The notes under the pieces were generated by a model. The model saw nothing but the letters and a program-made list of their open reading frames with translations. It searched no databases and was not told the origin of the DNA. Positions 1,086 through 26,234 of a stretch of 64,000 bases of DNA are shown in pieces. The position numbers were made by a program, and so were the translations under genes. Source of the DNA: Candidatus Chloroploca asiatica (GTDB lineage: Bacteria; Chloroflexota; Chloroflexia; Chloroflexales; Chloroflexaceae); assembly GCF_002532075.1 (NCBI RefSeq), contig NZ_LYXE01000063.1, positions 62,001 to 126,000 of the forward strand, written 5' to 3'. Numbering within the stretch: the stretch's first letter is position 1; the number at the start of each line of letters is the position of its first letter.

Positions 1086-1718
1086 ATGCCCAAAGTGATT
1101 ATCAATGATGTGGAGATGGAAGCGAAACCTGGTGAACGCCTTGTGAGTGTCGCACGACGCAATGCCGCCCATATCGGGTTTGTCTGTGGCGGTAATGGCG
1201 TTTGCCAGACCTGCCAGTGTCGCGTGCTTGCCGGGGCCGATCAGTTGAACCCGCCTACCGCAGTGGAACTGGCCTGGATGCCCGAACGACGCCTCGCTGA
1301 AGGCCATCGTCTGGCGTGCCAAGCTTCAATCCGCGGCCAGGGACCCATCGAGATCCTGAGCAAGGCCGAAGAATTGCGTCGTCAGGCGGTGCATGTGGTG
1401 CAACCCCCCGCCAATGAGCAATGGGTCGATCAGCTCAATCCCCTGGTCGATAATGTGCTTAAGCTGTGGGTTGATCAGCTCTCGCGCTATCCCTTTAACT
1501 TGATCAATGCCGTACGCCATGCCGGGCCAGTACGTTTTACGAATCCATCTGATGATGTTGCCCAGTGGGTTGATGACACCTTCCGCGTGGGCAGTATGAT
1601 GCTCACCGGAAGTGCCGCCGCACCCAGGGTTCCCGGACAGGGACGCGCCGAAGCGGCCCTAGACAATGCAGCCCGTGACGTTCGTCGTGCCGAAGCAGAA
1701 GTAAAACGTCTTTCATAG
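1086..1718 (+). CDS. [2Fe-2S] ferredoxin-domain protein, candidate chlorosome-envelope Fe-S protein
   Basis: 210 residues. The N-terminal ~85 residues are a plant/adrenodoxin-type [2Fe-2S] domain with C34-x5-C40-x2-C43 and a fourth ligand C78 in R-L-A-C-Q. The remaining ~120 residues are not ferredoxin: an amphipathic region (about 105-165) and a charged, helix-prone tail. A [2Fe-2S] domain followed by a helical extension is the layout of chlorosome envelope Fe-S proteins (CsmI/J/X of Chlorobi; a Fe-S protein named CsmY in Chloroflexus). That assignment is inferred from architecture and the likely host and is not proven. If right, the protein would pass electrons at the chlorosome surface for redox control of energy transfer. 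It has its own promoter, and the next gene starts 21 bases downstream. Alternative: a soluble electron carrier of unknown partner. Confidence 0.75.
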   Translation: MPKVIINDVEMEAKPGERLVSVARRNAAHIGFVCGGNGVCQTCQCRVLAGADQLNPPTAVELAWMPERRLAEGHRLACQASIRGQGPIEILSKAEELRRQAVHVVQPPANEQWVDQLNPLVDNVLKLWVDQLSRYPFNLINAVRHAGPVRFTNPSDDVAQWVDDTFRVGSMMLTGSAAAPRVPGQGRAEAALDNAARDVRRAEAEVKRLS

Positions 1719-1739: not shown

Positions 1740-2558
1740 ATGCAGCTTGGTATCAGGCTTGAGATTCACCCTGGAGACGATCTAAGTCGTGTGGCTGATA
1801 TGATCGCCTCCAGGGGCTTTGGTGCGTTGCACGCCCATTTCCCCGAAGGTTGTGACCGCTCGCTGGCCCGTCGCCTTGGACGCGCCTGTGCCCACCATGG
1901 GCTCTCGGTTGATGCCATTTCGGGGTATGCGAACCCCCTGCGCCCTGATGAGGCCCCCATGGGCAGTACGTTTGAGCAACTCTTGGATCTGATTGACCTC
2001 TTGCCCTTGCTTGATGCGCGACGAATTGTGAGTTGGAGTGGTAGTTTTGGGCCGGGGCTGTTTGATGAGCACCCCGATAACCACGGCGAGCTCGGGTGGC
2101 AAGCGTTGCAGCAAAGCGTGGAGGATCTCTTTCCCGTGCTTGATGATGCCGAGGCGATTCTCGTGCTTGATCCCTACTATACCCATGTGCTCAGCCATCC
2201 CAACGAAGTGGCGCGCTTCTGCGCCGAAATCAATTCGCCCTATGTCCGCGTGATGCTCGATCCGCCCGGCATGCTCCCCCCTGAGAACTGGGATCATCAA
2301 GCCGAACTGATCCCGCTAGGCGTCAGGGCGTTGACCCCCTATGTCGGGATGATCCAGTTTCGCGATATGCGCCTGAAGCACGGCGCGTTCGAAGATGCCC
2401 CCCCAGGCCACGGAGTCCTTGATTATCGCGCTTTTGTCCAGGCTATCCAGGCCAGCGAGTTGAGTGTCCCGATGTTCATCAGTCATACGCCCCTGGATCA
2501 GGCCGCGGCAGCCAGACGCTTTGTGCTTGACTACGCTCACGCTGTCCAACTCCGCTAA
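1740..2558 (+). CDS. Sugar phosphate isomerase/epimerase-like TIM-barrel protein
   Basis: 272 residues, consistent with the xylose-isomerase-like/AP-endonuclease-2 TIM-barrel superfamily. Visible features are an N-terminal L-G-I-R-L-E-I strand, a central strand with V-L-D-P-Y (about residue 140), V-M-L-D-P-P-G (about 170), a Q-F-R-D segment (about 208), and a G-H-G-V-L-D-Y-R-A-F motif (about 222) typical of sugar phosphate isomerases that bind a divalent metal through Glu, Asp and His. The substrate cannot be told from sequence. It probably shares the transcript of the Fe-S gene, 21 bases upstream, without a clear ribosome site of its own. No signal peptide is seen, so it should be cytoplasmic. 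Confidence 0.75.
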   Translation: MQLGIRLEIHPGDDLSRVADMIASRGFGALHAHFPEGCDRSLARRLGRACAHHGLSVDAISGYANPLRPDEAPMGSTFEQLLDLIDLLPLLDARRIVSWSGSFGPGLFDEHPDNHGELGWQALQQSVEDLFPVLDDAEAILVLDPYYTHVLSHPNEVARFCAEINSPYVRVMLDPPGMLPPENWDHQAELIPLGVRALTPYVGMIQFRDMRLKHGAFEDAPPGHGVLDYRAFVQAIQASELSVPMFISHTPLDQAAAARRFVLDYAHAVQLR

Positions 2559-2798: not shown

Positions 2799-3713
2799 AT
2801 GGAACAACCGCCGGTCATTCTGGCAGTCGTGGGCGACAGTGCAGCGGGCAAAACAACCCTGACCACCGGTGTTGCCACCATCCTTGGCCCGAGCCAGGTT
2901 GTTACGCTGCGGCTTGATGACTATCATCGGTACAATCGCGCCGAACGCGAATGCTTTGGGCTGACACCATTGCATCCTGATTGCAACTATCTTGAGATGA
3001 TGGAAGACCACCTGTTCCAGTTGTCGATGGGTAGGTCGATTATCAAGCCAGTCTATAACCACAAGACGGGTGATTTTGATGCACGCCAGCGCCTTGAAGC
3101 CGCCCCCTTCGTGATGACCGAAGGGTTGCTCGCCCTGGCAACCCCTCGCCTGCGTGAGCCTTGCCATATGCGGGTCTTTCTTGATCCACCTGAAGATTTG
3201 CGTGAGCGGTGGAAGATCCGCCGTGACTCGGTGCGCCGCGGCTATACGCCTGAACAGGTGCGTGAAGAGATGGCCCGGCGACGGGGTGATGCGATTGAAT
3301 TTATTCAGCCCCAGCGCGGCTGGGCTGATCTTATCGTGCGCTTTTTTCCCGCTGAACCTGGTGCCGAACAGTTGAGTGTGCGCCTCATTTTACGCCCTAC
3401 GCTCAGTTATCCCGATCTCAGTGAGGTCATTGCGTCACAGGGCGATCCGCCGGTGATGCGCTTGCGCGTCGGCCGCGATGATGGGCGGCTAACCGAAATT
3501 CTTGAAATTGATGGACGCCTCAGTACGCTGCAGGCCGAAGCCGTTGAAGATGTGATCTGGGAACATTTGCCCGGCCTCAGCCATCTGCGCCCCGAGCAGA
3601 TCGGCACTTACCTCGATGGCACCGATTGCCGGCAAAGCCATGTGCTCGGTCTCGTTCAATTGCTGATCGCCTATCAACTGCTGCTCAAAGCCGAAACCCT
3701 GCAACAATCATAG
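2799..3713 (+). CDS. Phosphoribulokinase/uridine kinase-family protein, PRK-type motifs
   Basis: 304 residues. The P-loop is at 12-20 (G-D-S-A-A-G-K-T-T). L-R-L-D-D-Y-H-R-Y follows at 38-45; the D-D-Y-H form is typical of phosphoribulokinase rather than uridine kinase. Further PRK-type segments are K-P-V-Y-N-H-K-T-G (about 86-94), T-E-G-L (about 107), W-K-I-R-R-D (about 141), a basic R-R-G-Y stretch and Q-P-Q-R-G-W-A-D-L-I (about 176). These resemble cyanobacterial/plant PRK, which phosphorylates ribulose 5-phosphate in the Calvin cycle, yet the paired redox cysteines of that class are absent from the N-terminus. No RuBisCO or other Calvin gene is in the window, so the real substrate is open. 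The ATG at 2799 has no obvious ribosome site. Confidence 0.8.
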   Translation: MEQPPVILAVVGDSAAGKTTLTTGVATILGPSQVVTLRLDDYHRYNRAERECFGLTPLHPDCNYLEMMEDHLFQLSMGRSIIKPVYNHKTGDFDARQRLEAAPFVMTEGLLALATPRLREPCHMRVFLDPPEDLRERWKIRRDSVRRGYTPEQVREEMARRRGDAIEFIQPQRGWADLIVRFFPAEPGAEQLSVRLILRPTLSYPDLSEVIASQGDPPVMRLRVGRDDGRLTEILEIDGRLSTLQAEAVEDVIWEHLPGLSHLRPEQIGTYLDGTDCRQSHVLGLVQLLIAYQLLLKAETLQQS

Positions 3714-3767: not shown

Positions 3768-3800
3768 AGCTTCCTGGGGGCCTACGGCCCCCAGGAAGCT
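3768..3800. terminator. 15-bp perfect hairpin between PRK-type kinase and cyclophilin
   Basis: Arms 3768-3782 and 3786-3800 are perfectly complementary with a 3-base loop. It ends only a few bases before the -10 element of the next gene, so it could separate the two transcripts. Confidence 0.6.
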
Positions 3801-3812: not shown

Positions 3813-3873
3813 CCCTTGGTAAGTTTCAAGTGTGCTTGAAGCATCGATGCATGTCCAGGTGAAAGGAATACAT

Positions 3874-4356
3874 ATGAGTGTCAAGAAGTGGAGCAATCCG
3901 CCCACGATGCAGATCGATCCGACCAAGAACTATGCCGTGACCATGGAGACCACCGCGGGAACCATGGAGTTAGAGCTGTATCCGCAGCATGCCCCGGCCA
4001 CGGTCAATAACTTTGTGTTTTTGGCCTCTGAGGGTTTTTATGATGGGGTGATCTTTCATCGCGTCATTGCCAATTTTATGATCCAGGGCGGCGATCCTAC
4101 CGGTACCGGCACCGGCGGCCCAGGCTATCGTTTCAAAGATGAGCTCTATGGCAATCCGCTCAAACACGAGCGCGGGGTCATCTCGATGGCCAATGCCGGC
4201 CCTAATACGAACGGGAGCCAGTTTTTTATTACGCACGCGCCCCAGCCCCACCTCAATGGCAAGCATACAGTCTTTGGGAAAGTCACCGCCGGGCTAGAGG
4301 TCGTTGATACGATCCGCCAGGGCGACAAGATCGTCAAAGTCACCGTACAACCATAG
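3874..4356 (+). CDS. Peptidyl-prolyl cis-trans isomerase, cyclophilin type
   Basis: 160 residues from the ATG at 3874, chosen because AAAGGAA lies 6 bases upstream; an in-frame ATG at 3832 would add 14 unremarkable residues and has no ribosome site. Core cyclophilin motifs are present: V-N-N-F-V-F-L-A, the catalytic stretch F-H-R-V-I with [22 protein letters not shown], and [10 protein letters not shown]. These include the active-site Arg, Phe, Gln and His of the family. It catalyses proline isomerisation during protein folding. With no signal peptide or membrane segment it should be cytoplasmic. It is monocistronic, with its own promoter and a strong terminator. Confidence 0.95.
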
Positions 4357-4506: not shown

Positions 4507-4583
4507 ATGTCCTTAATGAACCTCTTCTTTTTTCACCGCCCAACCCCTCGGGCGGCACGTCGGATAGGTCAAGGAGGACTGTG

Positions 4584-6695
4584 ATGCGAGCGTATGGCCC
4601 CGAAAGGATTCACAACATCGGCATATTTGGTCACCTCGGCAGCGGCAAGACAACGCTGGCCGAGGCAATGCTACTGACCGCCCACGCTATCCCGCGTATG
4701 GGGCGCGTCGAGGACGGGTCGACGGTGAGCGACTACGACCCCGATGAGCACCGCCGCGGGATGTCTGTTTCCCTCTCTGTCCTTCCTCTTGAATGGCACG
4801 ATGATAAGATTAATCTGATTGATACGCCCGGCTCTGCCGATTTTGTGGCTGATGTGGCAGCGGCGATGCGCATCCTTGATGGTGCAGTGCTTGTGCTGGA
4901 TGCCTCGGCCGGCGTTGAGGTTGGCACAGAACTCGTCTGGGAAATGGCCGTTCAGCATAAGGTGCCGCGGATCCTCTTTGTCAATAAACTGGATCGCGAG
5001 AACGCAAATTTCTATCGCACCGTTGAGCACGCCCGCGAGGTGCTTGATGCGGCGGTGATCCCTATGCAGATCCCGATTGGGTCTGGCAAGGATTTTAAGG
5101 GCATTATTTCCCTTCGTCAGCAGCGCGCCTGGCTTGTCTCACCTGACCACGATGGCGGATTCATCGAGAATGATGTCCCTGCCGAACTCAATGAGGTGAT
5201 GCACGAATGGCGTACGGCGTTGATTGATAAGATTGCCGCCACCAATGACGATCTGATCGAGCGCTATCTGGAGGGCGGCGAAGATGCGCTGACCCGTGAT
5301 GAGTTGCTGGTCGGTCTGCGGGCTGGCATTTCCGATGGCTCGATTGTCCCCGTCTTCTGTGGCTCGGCCCTCGAAGTTGCCGGAATCCAACAACTGCTCA
5401 ATGCAATTGTCGACTCGATTCCCTCAGCTGCACGCAAGTCGGTCAGTGCGACCGATCTCAATACCGGTGAGCCGCTTACCCTGCGGGCCGCTGATGATGA
5501 GCAGGCCAGTGCGCTGGTTTTCAAGACGGTCTCGGATACCTATGGCAAGGTGAGTCTCTTCCGCGTCTTTTCGGGTGAAGTGCACGCTAATAGTAGCCTG
5601 CTGAATAGTCGCACCCGCAAAGAAGAACGGATCAACCACGTCTATAGTGTCTTTGGCAAAGAGCAGCGTGATCTGGAACGTGTCGGCGCAGGTGATATCG
5701 GGGTGCTGACCAAGCTCGCCGAAACGATGACCAATGATACGCTCTGTGCCGCCGCGAGCCCGGTACAACTCGATCCGATCAGTTTCCCCGCCCCGGCGTT
5801 CATTGCGACCGTCAAACCGCATAGCCGCGCGGATCTCGATAAGCTCGGAACGGCCCTCGGACGGATGATTGAAGAAGACCCGAGCCTTCAGACGTCACGC
5901 GATATGCAGACTGGCGAAACGTTGCTCGCTGGCCTCAGTGAGAGCCACCTCCAGTTTGTGGGCGAGCGGATGAAACGCAAGTTCGATGTCAGTATTGACG
6001 TTGATTTGCCCCGCATTCCTTACCGCGAAGCAATCCGGGGCAAAGCGGAAGCGCAGTATCGCCACAAGAAGCAGACCGGCGGCGCTGGGCAGTTTGCCGA
6101 TGTCACCCTCAGGGTTGAACCACTTGAGCCAGATCCTAACCGTGAAGATGGCCTCGAGTTTATTAATGCGGTCGTCGGGGGCGTGATCTCGCGTGGCTTT
6201 ATGCCCGCCATCGAGAAGGGTATCCGTGAAGCAATGGCCGAAGGCTTGCTCTCGGGGAGCCCGATCAGTGATGTGCGCGTTGAGGTCTTTGATGGCAAAG
6301 AGCATCCGGTTGACTCGAAGGAAATTGCGTTTAAGTCAGCCGGCAAAGAGGCCTTCAAGCTCGCCGCGCATAAGGCGGGTGTGGTGATTATGGAGCCGAT
6401 CTACACGATGGAGATTGTGGTTCCTGATCAGTTCGCCGGTGATATTATGAGCGATATGAGTACGCGCCGCGGGCGGGTGATGGGCATGTTGCCAACCGGT
6501 ACCGGCAAGACGGCGATTTCGGCGCAGGCACCGCTGGCCGAGATTCAACGCTATGCGACGGATCTGCGGGCGATGACCCAGGCTCGTGGGCGCTTTGCGA
6601 TCGCGTTTGCCGCCTATGAAGAAGTGCCGGCCCATCTGGTTGAGACTGTGATTGCGGCCCATAAGAAAGAAGCCGAAGCCAATAACACTCATTAA
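4584..6695 (+). CDS. Elongation factor G-like GTPase (FusA2-type paralogue)
   Basis: 703 residues from the ATG at 4584. A GTG at 4581 is also in frame, but AAGGAGG at 4571-4577 is better spaced for the ATG. All EF-G domains appear: G domain with G1 at 16-24 (G-H-L-G-S-G-K-T-T), switch I R-R-G-M-S-V-S-L, G3 at 80-84 (D-T-P-G-S), G4 N-K-L-D, then domains II to V. G1 and G3 differ from canonical EF-G: A-H-I-D-A-G-K-T-T becomes G-H-L-G-S-G-K-T-T, and the catalytic His of D-T-P-G-H is Ser84. That places it with EF-G-II/FusA2-like paralogues rather than the main translocase. Its ribosomal role is unknown; slow or uncoupled GTP hydrolysis is inferred. It is a single-gene unit with strong promoter and terminator. 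Confidence 0.9.
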   Translation: MRAYGPERIHNIGIFGHLGSGKTTLAEAMLLTAHAIPRMGRVEDGSTVSDYDPDEHRRGMSVSLSVLPLEWHDDKINLIDTPGSADFVADVAAAMRILDGAVLVLDASAGVEVGTELVWEMAVQHKVPRILFVNKLDRENANFYRTVEHAREVLDAAVIPMQIPIGSGKDFKGIISLRQQRAWLVSPDHDGGFIENDVPAELNEVMHEWRTALIDKIAATNDDLIERYLEGGEDALTRDELLVGLRAGISDGSIVPVFCGSALEVAGIQQLLNAIVDSIPSAARKSVSATDLNTGEPLTLRAADDEQASALVFKTVSDTYGKVSLFRVFSGEVHANSSLLNSRTRKEERINHVYSVFGKEQRDLERVGAGDIGVLTKLAETMTNDTLCAAASPVQLDPISFPAPAFIATVKPHSRADLDKLGTALGRMIEEDPSLQTSRDMQTGETLLAGLSESHLQFVGERMKRKFDVSIDVDLPRIPYREAIRGKAEAQYRHKKQTGGAGQFADVTLRVEPLEPDPNREDGLEFINAVVGGVISRGFMPAIEKGIREAMAEGLLSGSPISDVRVEVFDGKEHPVDSKEIAFKSAGKEAFKLAAHKAGVVIMEPIYTMEIVVPDQFAGDIMSDMSTRRGRVMGMLPTGTGKTAISAQAPLAEIQRYATDLRAMTQARGRFAIAFAAYEEVPAHLVETVIAAHKKEAEANNTH

Positions 6696-18508: not shown

Positions 18509-20182
18509 CTAGACAACGAGCGTCTCCTGGTAGACGCCGAAGGTCTCGCGGAGCACATCGCACATCTCGCCGACGGTGCAGTAGGCACGCACACAATTGA
18601 GGATGGCCGGCATAGTATTGTCGGTGCCTTCAGCAGCAGCCCGTAGCTCGGCAAGGCGTTGGGCAACCAGCGCCTGATCACGCTCACGGCGCACGCGATT
18701 GAGGCGTTCAAGGTGCTTGCGCTCACCTTCGGGATCCATTTCGAGGATCGGCACCTCGATCGGCGCTTTGACAGTATGCGCATTGACCGCGATCACCTCA
18801 CGCTCACCATCGTCAATTTCTTGCTGATAGCGGTAGGCCGCATCGGCAATAGCCTGCTGGAAATAGCCATTGCGAATAGCGGCAATCACGCCACCCTGAG
18901 CATAGATCGCCTTGAAATACTCATTTGTCTCGCGTTCCATCCGGTCGGTCAGCGCCTCAACAAAATAGCTTCCCCCGAGCGGATCAACCGTATTGGTCAC
19001 GCCACTCTCGGCGGCAATGACCTGCTGGGTACGCAAGGCAATCGTCACGGCCTTCTCGCTGGGCAACGCCAGGGCTTCATCCATCGAATTCGTATGCAGG
19101 CTCTGGGTACCACCGAGGACAGCAGCGAGGGCCTGGATCGCCGTGCGAACGATATTGACCTCAGGCTGCTGCGCCGTCAACGAGCAACCGGCGGTCTGCG
19201 TATGGAAACGGAGCCACCAGGAGCGTTCTTTTTTGGCCCCATAGGTCTCACGCATCAACCGCGCCCAGATCCGGCGGGCGGCGCGATACTTAGCGATCTC
19301 TTCAAAAAAGTCATTATGGGCATTGAAGAAGAAAGAAATCCGGGGCGCAAAATCATCAATATCGAGCCCACGCTCAAGGCAGGCCTCGACATAAGCCCGT
19401 CCATCAGCCAGCGTAAAAGCAAGTTCTTGCACCGACGTACTGCCGGCCTCACGGATGTGATACCCACTCACACTGACCGGATTCCACTGCGGGACATACG
19501 TGCTCCCAAACTCAATGGTATCCACCACCAGCCGCATACTAGGTTCAGGCGGAAAGATATACTCATTCTGAGCGATATACTCTTTGAGGATATCATTCTG
19601 GGTCGTCCCACGGAGCCTCGACCATGGAATGCCGCGCTGCTCGGCCACGACAAGATACATTGCCCAGATCATTGCGGCGGGCGAATTGATCGTCATCGAG
19701 GTCGAGACCTGATCGAGGGGCAAACCATCGAGCAGCAGTTCCATATCGGCGAGTGACGAGATCGCCACCCCACACTTGCCAAACTCACCCTCTACCAGCG
19801 GATGATCGGTATCGCGTCCATAGAGGGTCGGCATATCAAACGCGATCGACAACCCGGTCTGGCCCTGGCTGAGCAAATACTTGAAACGCGCATTCGTCTC
19901 TTCGGCCGTACCAAAGCCGGCGAACATGCGCATCGTCCAGACCTTGCCACGATATCCGGTGGGATGCACCCCGCGTGTATAGGGATACTCACCAGGATGG
20001 GCAAGCTCACGCAGATAGTCATTATCCTGCAGATCGAGTGGCGTATAGAGGCGCTCGATGGGCGCACTACTCGTCGTCATAAACCGCACATCTCGCTCGG
20101 GCGTACGCTCGAGCGTCGGCCAGAGTGTCTCTTGTTCCCAGCGCGCCTGTGCTGCTTGCACTGCTTCTTTTTCCTCTACCAT
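18509..20182 (-). CDS. Methylmalonyl-CoA mutase, catalytic (N-terminal) subunit
   Basis: 557 residues covering only the TIM-barrel substrate domain of methylmalonyl-CoA mutase. Visible family segments include [63 protein letters not shown] and [14 protein letters not shown]. The cobalamin-binding D-x-H-x-x-G domain is absent, so a separate B12 subunit must be encoded elsewhere, as in other two-part mutases. It interconverts methylmalonyl-CoA and succinyl-CoA, a step of propionate metabolism and of the 3-hydroxypropionate bi-cycle known in Chloroflexus. It is divergent from comF and in the same orientation as clpC downstream. No recognised element lies in the 156-base gap to clpC. Confidence 0.92.
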
Positions 20183-25379: not shown

Positions 25380-26234
25380 ATGATGCGCGAGGAAGAAGCA
25401 ATACGTCAGTCAGTTGGTATGCCGGTTACAGTTGCAAGACTCTGTGACGATCTGCGTAGACTCGGCCTGCAAGCCGGTATGACCGTGCTGGTGCATGCAA
25501 GTTTGAGTCGCTTGGGGTGGGTCTGTGGGGGACCGGTTGCGGTCATCCTGGCCCTCGAAGAGGTTCTGGGCAACACGGGCACCCTGGTGATGCCAACCCA
25601 TAGCGCCGATCTTTCCGATCCTGCGGCCTGGGTGGCTCCACCCGTCCCCGAACCCTGGTGGCCGGTGATCCGTGACCATATGCCCGCCTATGATCCGGCG
25701 CTCACTCCGTCACGTCGGATGGGGACGATCGCCGAAACCTTTCGTCGCCAACCAGGCGTCGTACGGAGTCAGCATCCTCAGGTCTCTTTCGCTGCATGGG
25801 GTCGCCACGCCGAGTGGATTGTGGCCGATCATACGTATCAGGTCAATCTCGGCGAAGGCTCGCCCTTAGCGCGCCTGTACGAGTGCGCTGGATTTGTGTT
25901 GCTGCTCGGTGTCGGCCACGCCAACAATACGTCGCTCCATCTGGCCGAGTACCGCGCTAATTTTCCGCAGAAACAAAAGATCATAACCGGTGCGCCCATT
26001 CTGGTGGATGGGCAACGACAATGGGTGACCTGGACTGATCTTGATTGGAATGACCACGATTTTGCCCAGATCGGGGCTGATTTTGCCCAAGCGACTGGCC
26101 TCGAACGGCGCGGTGCCGTGGGAGTAGGGACGGGTATCCTGGTACCACAGCGGCCTCTCGTTGATTATGCGGTAGCCTGGATGGAACGGTTGCGGATTGA
26201 CGAGAGAGACGGTTTTAACGCAGAGGCGCAATAG
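25380..26234 (+). CDS. AAC(3)-family (aminoglycoside N3-acetyltransferase-like/YokD) protein
   Basis: 284 residues. Typical features of the antibiotic_NAT family are [21 protein letters not shown]-x-A-L near 51-60, G-T-L-V-M-P-T-H-S, a [11 protein letters not shown] segment, R-S-x-H-P-x-V-S-F-A-A-W-G, and [14 protein letters not shown]. The family uses acetyl-CoA; the H-P and H-L-A-E regions hold the likely catalytic residues. Many chromosomal members of environmental bacteria do not confer resistance, so drug modification should not be assumed. It lies 149 bases after the amidase and 23 bases before the RraA-like gene. I recognise nothing in the 149-base gap. Confidence 0.85.

Follow-up and report, generated by a model that had tools for sequence, protein, structure and literature searches.

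Why should a genome in which no RuBisCO can be found keep an intact gene of the phosphoribulokinase (PRK) type? The gene in question lies in a stretch of 64,000 nucleotides from Candidatus Chloroploca asiatica (contig NZ_LYXE01000063.1, positions 62,001 to 126,000; hereafter the window), where an open reading frame at 2799..3713 on the forward strand begins with ATG and encodes 304 amino acids. A first-pass annotation of the window had proposed either a real PRK or a kinase for another sugar or nucleoside and, noting a methylmalonyl-CoA mutase in the same stretch, had concluded that two carbon-fixation themes appear side by side. Here we argue that the kinase is best read as the survivor of a lost Calvin cycle, and not as a sign of two carbon-fixation pathways.

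Family, fold and active site of the kinase

The three motifs that first drew attention to the gene are all present in the reading frame (DDYH at D40-H43, KPVYNHKTG at K83-G91 and WKIRRD at W138-D143), and the resemblance is well above chance. The protein matches the Pfam PRK profile PF00485 (1.7e-30) and passes the curated cut-off of the NCBIfam model NF005655, PRK07429 'phosphoribulokinase' (1.7e-95; 320 bits against a cut-off of 236). Its top matches among PDB sequences are 9qko (8.7e-79), 9qkp and 9qkn (to 1.3e-77), all titled as cyanobacteria-specific PRK, although the sequence file names the 9qkn molecule 'Uridine kinase'; the archaeal PRK 5b3f (1.3e-38) and canonical cyanobacterial PRKs (about 1e-37) come next. 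The reported closeness to cyanobacterial PRK thus holds for the second, 'cyanobacteria specific' enzymes but not for the canonical one. An AlphaFold2 model made with 33 aligned sequences (mean pLDDT 92.4, pTM 0.91) predicts a PRK fold across the full length, C-terminal domain included, and Foldseek matches it to 9qko at TM 0.90/0.91 and 42% identity, to 5b3f at TM 0.76 and to 6kev at 0.75/0.72.

Active-site residues were mapped through an ungapped phmmer (HMMER) alignment of kinase residues 7-205 to the archaeal enzyme 5b3f, the PRK of M. hungatei (MhPRK). In the accessible text of PMC5241800, MhPRK residues H55, R59, R62, Y98, H100, K151 and R154 are described as binding ribulose 5-phosphate (Ru5P) or ATP; the 5b3f chain is numbered 20 higher, an offset taken from chain lengths of 343 and 323 residues. 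All seven align with identical residues in the kinase (H43, R47, R50, Y86, H88, K139 and R142), which also shows a Walker A motif (residues 12-20), a segment holding the catalytic Asp and the Ru5P loop (D40-R50), a Walker-B-type pair (E108-G109) and a lid (W138-R147). In an alignment of 122 kinases, the seven mapped residues together with the P-loop, D40, D41, K83, E108 and W138 are identical in 11 of 11 orthologues from RuBisCO-free genomes, and the full set is likewise identical in two sister kinases encoded in RuBisCO operons (genomes G030 and G019).

In the same alignment (n = 122), 60 columns show at least 97% invariance across 47 RuBisCO-linked kinases. The 11 orthologues, that of the window included, keep 608 of 660 such cells (92.1%), as against 118/120 (98.3%) in the two operon-linked sisters and 1652/1680 (98.3%) in 28 cyanobacterial copies; the corresponding counts are 214/300 for a divergent paralogue, 204/240 for the kinases of a RuBisCO-less group, f24, 129/180 for canonical PRKs and 23/60 for a udk-type protein. 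Changes specific to the RuBisCO-free 11 include H204Y in every member and alterations at P96 and Y98 in most. The orphans thus have the full catalytic set and differ, in ways peculiar to their clade, at some positions elsewhere; because they depart from otherwise invariant PRK columns some change of property is possible. Family model, residues, fold and tree (see below) together support a kinase of the PRK type, so that the PRK half of the original alternative is favoured and a uridine kinase disfavoured.

RuBisCO and the distribution of the kinase

The window's genome is a draft of 5,839,665 bases in 199 contigs (completeness 100), and a profile search of it, as the first-pass annotation had advised, returned no match to the RuBisCO large subunit (PF00016) or small subunit (PF00101). 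As a control, the PF00016 search gave matches in five of 14 genomes, among them Bacillus subtilis, where we take the match to be its RuBisCO-like protein. A PRK acting in the Calvin-Benson-Bassham cycle would be expected to share its genome with RuBisCO, and this one does not, which leaves the genome with no Calvin cycle. The methylmalonyl-CoA mutase is real (18509-20182, reverse strand), but the claim that both carbon-fixation themes appear finds no support. The accessible portions of PMC6180586 agree: in Ca. Chloroploca, Ca. Viridilinea and Ca. Chloranaerofilum they describe genes for 3-OHP but none for the Calvin cycle, and the species covered include Ca. Chloroploca asiatica and Ca. Viridilinea mediisalina.

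The gene neighbourhood is equally free of Calvin-cycle enzymes, as had been noted: an NCBIfam scan found none among the flanking genes and 20 further large reading frames, drawn from the 45 in the window of at least 250 aa (some of them overlapping). Upstream on the same strand lie a 2Fe-2S ferredoxin-domain protein (PF00111, 210 aa, 1086..1718), a syntenic neighbour within the genus, and a xylose-isomerase-like TIM barrel (PF01261, 272 aa, 1740..2558). Downstream, and providing context only, are genes on the forward strand for a cyclophilin-type peptidyl-prolyl isomerase (3832..4356) and an EF-G-like translational GTPase (704 aa, 4581..6695). Between kinase and cyclophilin is a 15-bp perfect inverted repeat (3768..3800, forward strand; -36.8 kcal/mol over a 76-nt stretch, z -5.5), which has no T run and hence was not scored as an intrinsic terminator. 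Elsewhere in the window, a forward-strand frame at 25380-26234 resembles aminoglycoside 3-N-acetyltransferases, below the cut-offs (216 of 270 bits).

Within the family, PF00016 matches occur in 12 of 41 genomes; those of 11 reach form I strength, and that of G009 is weak (1.6e-30). Kinase matches occur in 35 of the 41, a count in which orthologues, the divergent paralogue and short matches of udk type are mixed. The close orthologues, of 71-100% identity, come from 11 genomes in four genera (g1: G000, G014, G015; g11: G023-G027; g15: G031; g18: G039, G040), 10 of them at least 95% complete; the reading frame is intact in all 11, and PF00016 is found in none. Where RuBisCO is present, a family kinase shares a contig with rbcL in 10 of 11 genomes, the rbcL match and that of the nearest kinase being 1.6-3.8 kb apart; in the other, G002, the two are on different contigs.

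The same association extends across the phylum. Among 400 Chloroflexota genomes (kinase E <= 1.6e-56, full-length rbcL E <= 1e-90; the draws for the two genes are taken as identical, their handles agreeing), the kinase was found in 41 and rbcL in 28. Since 25 genomes have both, while 16 have the kinase only and three rbcL only, the PRK07429 family is tied to RuBisCO as a rule in Chloroflexota, and the RuBisCO-free clade is the exception. The 16 kinase-only genomes comprise eight of the present clade, seven of group f24 and G222. Histidine replaces E108 in the four of seven f24 kinases that were aligned (L062-L065), G222 has Asp there, and none of the RuBisCO-less kinases inspected outside the family (f1) has the whole residue set. 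Two further kinases within f1 bear on the pattern: that of G017 (88% complete, no RuBisCO found) groups with the RuBisCO-linked clade and keeps all residues, and that of G028 belongs to the present clade and carries H43L.

Beyond these genomes, rbcL was present in the fetched stretch of 33 of 80 named loci (a hand count; some stretches are short), divided as 0/29 cyanobacterial, 0/10 proteobacterial and 33/41 others. RuBisCO occurs in all 10 genomes probed there, and in three of these (G421, G423, G426) the PRK07429 protein is the sole PF00485 match, from which we infer that it must be their PRK if the assemblies are complete.

Descent of the kinase and competing explanations

The 122 rows of the alignment represent 162 matching reading frames minus duplicates and two 96-aa fragments. 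In a first tree of all rows, udk, the paralogue rows and the canonical PRKs stood on very long branches; a second, of 66 rows, left out udk, canonical PRKs, divergent paralogues, f24 rows and some ten RuBisCO-linked rows that were redundant or long. Of the kinases that lie outside the clade and have no known RuBisCO link, this second tree kept 13 cyanobacterial and proteobacterial ones and dropped the others. In the 66-row tree the 11 RuBisCO-free kinases form one clade (support 100/100) on a long stem (0.47), nested in a wider clade of 15 rows (96/97) that adds the kinases of G028, L071 (a Roseiflexaceae MAG) and the G030 and G019 operons; support is weak (47/30) for the backbone that connects this wider clade with its relatives. 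The phylogeny called for in the first-pass annotation thus places the kinase among PRK clades. Absence of RuBisCO together with a position in a non-PRK clade had been named there as grounds against a PRK; the absence was found, the position was not.

The G030 operon (JANQID01, a Chloroflexaceae MAG) runs rbcL, an rbcS-like gene so labelled by position and size alone, cbbX (TIGR02880), the clade kinase, transketolase (TIGR00232), a second PRK and ribulose-phosphate epimerase (TIGR01163), and the G019 locus holds rbcL, a cbbX homologue, the clade kinase, a second PRK and rpiA. The RuBisCO operons of two Chloroflexales genera (L030:8226-16403 and L031:2256-8141) therefore carry two different PRK-type kinases, the second of which falls in the Oscillochloris-type clade in both. 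As the operon-linked pair forms the first branch within the clade, the simpler reading starts from an operon with two PRKs and has RuBisCO lost later; the less simple alternative is that operons recruited the kinase.

We suggest, with a probability of roughly 60%, that the gene encodes a catalytically competent Ru5P kinase of the PRK07429 clade, retained after its lineage lost RuBisCO. Such an enzyme would phosphorylate ribulose 5-phosphate to ribulose 1,5-bisphosphate (RuBP) with ATP and would descend from the second PRK copy that adjoins RuBisCO in relatives; the lineage would have lost RuBisCO and turned to a RuBisCO-free life, with purifying selection retaining the kinase thereafter, and the product may now have a use outside carbon fixation, for instance in regulatory signalling or in an undescribed route. 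We know of no sink for RuBP without RuBisCO. A study of a RuBisCO mutant of R. rubrum reportedly blamed RuBP accumulation, and PrkA is called toxic in E. coli in the accessible part of PMC7463662. Retention of the kinase is puzzling because RuBP leads nowhere when RuBisCO is absent, and does harm in other bacteria; the kinase might be tightly controlled, RuBP might act as a signal or feed an unknown route, or the substrate might have changed subtly. By analogy, the activation of CbbR by RuBP in Rhodobacter (available text of PMC4806589) may offer a precedent for RuBP as a signal. The bolder proposal, that these anoxygenic phototrophs keep an active and selected PRK and so make RuBP for a purpose that belongs to no known RuBisCO pathway (to signal pentose-phosphate or energy status, for example, or to supply an undescribed enzyme with its substrate), we put forward tentatively, as something that could well be wrong.

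Conversion of RuBP to ribose 1,5-bisphosphate by an IF-2B-type isomerase was considered and rejected as unsupported, though not disproved. TIGR00511 (cut-off 314 bits) has two sub-cut-off matches in the window's genome, an S-methyl-5-thioribose-1-phosphate isomerase (200 bits) and a divergent IF-2B-like protein (120 bits), and since the closest homologues of the latter are spread family-wide, with and without the kinase, they have no specific link to it. In G009 (genus g4), the weak PF00016 match, probably a RuBisCO-like protein, lies about 2 kb from an IF-2B/MtnA-type gene (C1:404560-405297 and 407665-408183), perhaps as a methionine salvage cluster.

A shift of substrate after RuBisCO loss, yielding a neofunctionalised sugar or sugar-phosphate kinase perhaps supplied by the TIM-barrel neighbour, is possible but on present evidence doubtful. 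It would fit the substitutions outside the catalytic core, the long stem and the harm that RuBP would do, and the TIM barrel is the same-strand upstream neighbour in eight of the 11 genomes of the kinase clade and 4.4 kb away in a ninth. Yet the mapped Ru5P-binding residues are intact in all 11, 240 bp separate the TIM barrel from the kinase, and the pairing does not hold throughout: no TIM barrel was found in G039, that of G040 lies on a different contig from the kinase, and G001-G003, G016 and G020 have one without the kinase clade. With co-occurrence this loose, we rejected the TIM barrel as an obligate partner; a PDB sequence search with it gave no match.

That the protein is in effect the genome's uridine or nucleoside kinase seems very improbable, even though the PF00485 search found three matches in this genome (the kinase, the divergent paralogue and a pantothenate kinase, with no canonical PRK) and no dedicated uridine kinase. 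It falls far short of both udk models (86.8 bits against a cut-off of 180, 70.2 against 220.3) and differs from the udk-type protein at eight of 19 key positions (D41, H43, R47, K83, H88, W138, K139, Q172), while its predicted fold, which follows PRK over the whole length, matches uridine kinases only partially (about 0.54 of the query, some 185 columns); moreover, in genomes of g15 and g18 a short udk-like match occurs in addition to this kinase. The divergent paralogue (G000:C79:26446-27345; L040:9432-10397, reverse strand), also found in G009, is likely an annotation trap and not a PRK: it scores 238.8 bits against PRK07429, 3 above the cut-off, with Tyr for the Walker-B-type Glu108 in 5/5 rows and Arg or Glu for K139.

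No better placed is the idea that the gene is a relic, decaying or neutral, that does nothing today. The lack of RuBisCO and of Calvin-cycle neighbours would suit it, but the frame and key residues are kept in 11/11, whereas other RuBisCO-less members have changed Glu108 (the paralogue and f24 rows above), and seven within-genus pairs give Nei-Gojobori dN/dS values of 0.040-0.081, which contradicts a relic. Two RuBisCO-linked pairs lie at a like level (0.075 and 0.035), and the ratio between genera g1 and g18 is 0.170 (dS 1.2); selection keeps the gene. Least probable of all is a real Calvin cycle whose RuBisCO was missed in a draft of 199 contigs, given the genome's completeness, the absence of PF00016 from all 11 mostly near-complete clade genomes, its detection at form I strength in 11 others by the same search, and the agreement of PMC6180586, as far as its accessible text goes.

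Significance and comparison with known systems

In the titles and abstracts searched, no natural RuBisCO-free PRK was reported, no paper paired 'Chloroploca' with 'phosphoribulokinase', and none mentioned 9qko, 9qkn or 9qkp; the accessible parts of PMC12168267 and PMC7895386 do not treat a RuBisCO-free PRK. PRK serves as a Calvin-cycle marker gene, and a selected, residue-intact PRK in RuBisCO-free genomes means that PRK alone is no evidence for that cycle. The lineage also offers a natural system for the role of RuBP when nothing carboxylates it, and the kinase may record the exchange of the Calvin cycle for another pathway.

Canonical plant-type PRK, which is redox-regulated, carries a P-loop cysteine with a regulatory role. 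The present kinase lacks it, reading GDSAAGKT where three of three canonical cyanobacterial rows have GDSGCGKS, and shares with the canonical Synechococcus enzyme (6kev/6hzk) and archaeal 5b3f the N-terminal domain fold and the mapped Ru5P/ATP residues, at 22-28% identity and TM 0.66-0.76. It is much closer to the 'cyanobacteria specific PRK' (9qko, 9qkp, 9qkn), the second PRK of many cyanobacteria, with the same family model and active-site residues, about 42% identity over nearly the full length and TM 0.87-0.93; unlike the window's genome, which has neither, the hosts of that enzyme possess RuBisCO, with a canonical PRK besides in 3/3 probed cyanobacterial genomes. The RuBisCO-linked PRK07429 kinases of Oscillochloris-type Chloroflexales, Acidobacteria, Methylacidiphilum and others have the same family membership and catalytic residues (44-50% identity), but form a separate clade and adjoin rbcL, rbcS-like and cbbX genes. 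Closest among RuBisCO-linked kinases are those of G030 and G019, which at 54-57% identity join the present kinase in one supported clade and yet sit inside an rbcL operon, beside a second PRK.
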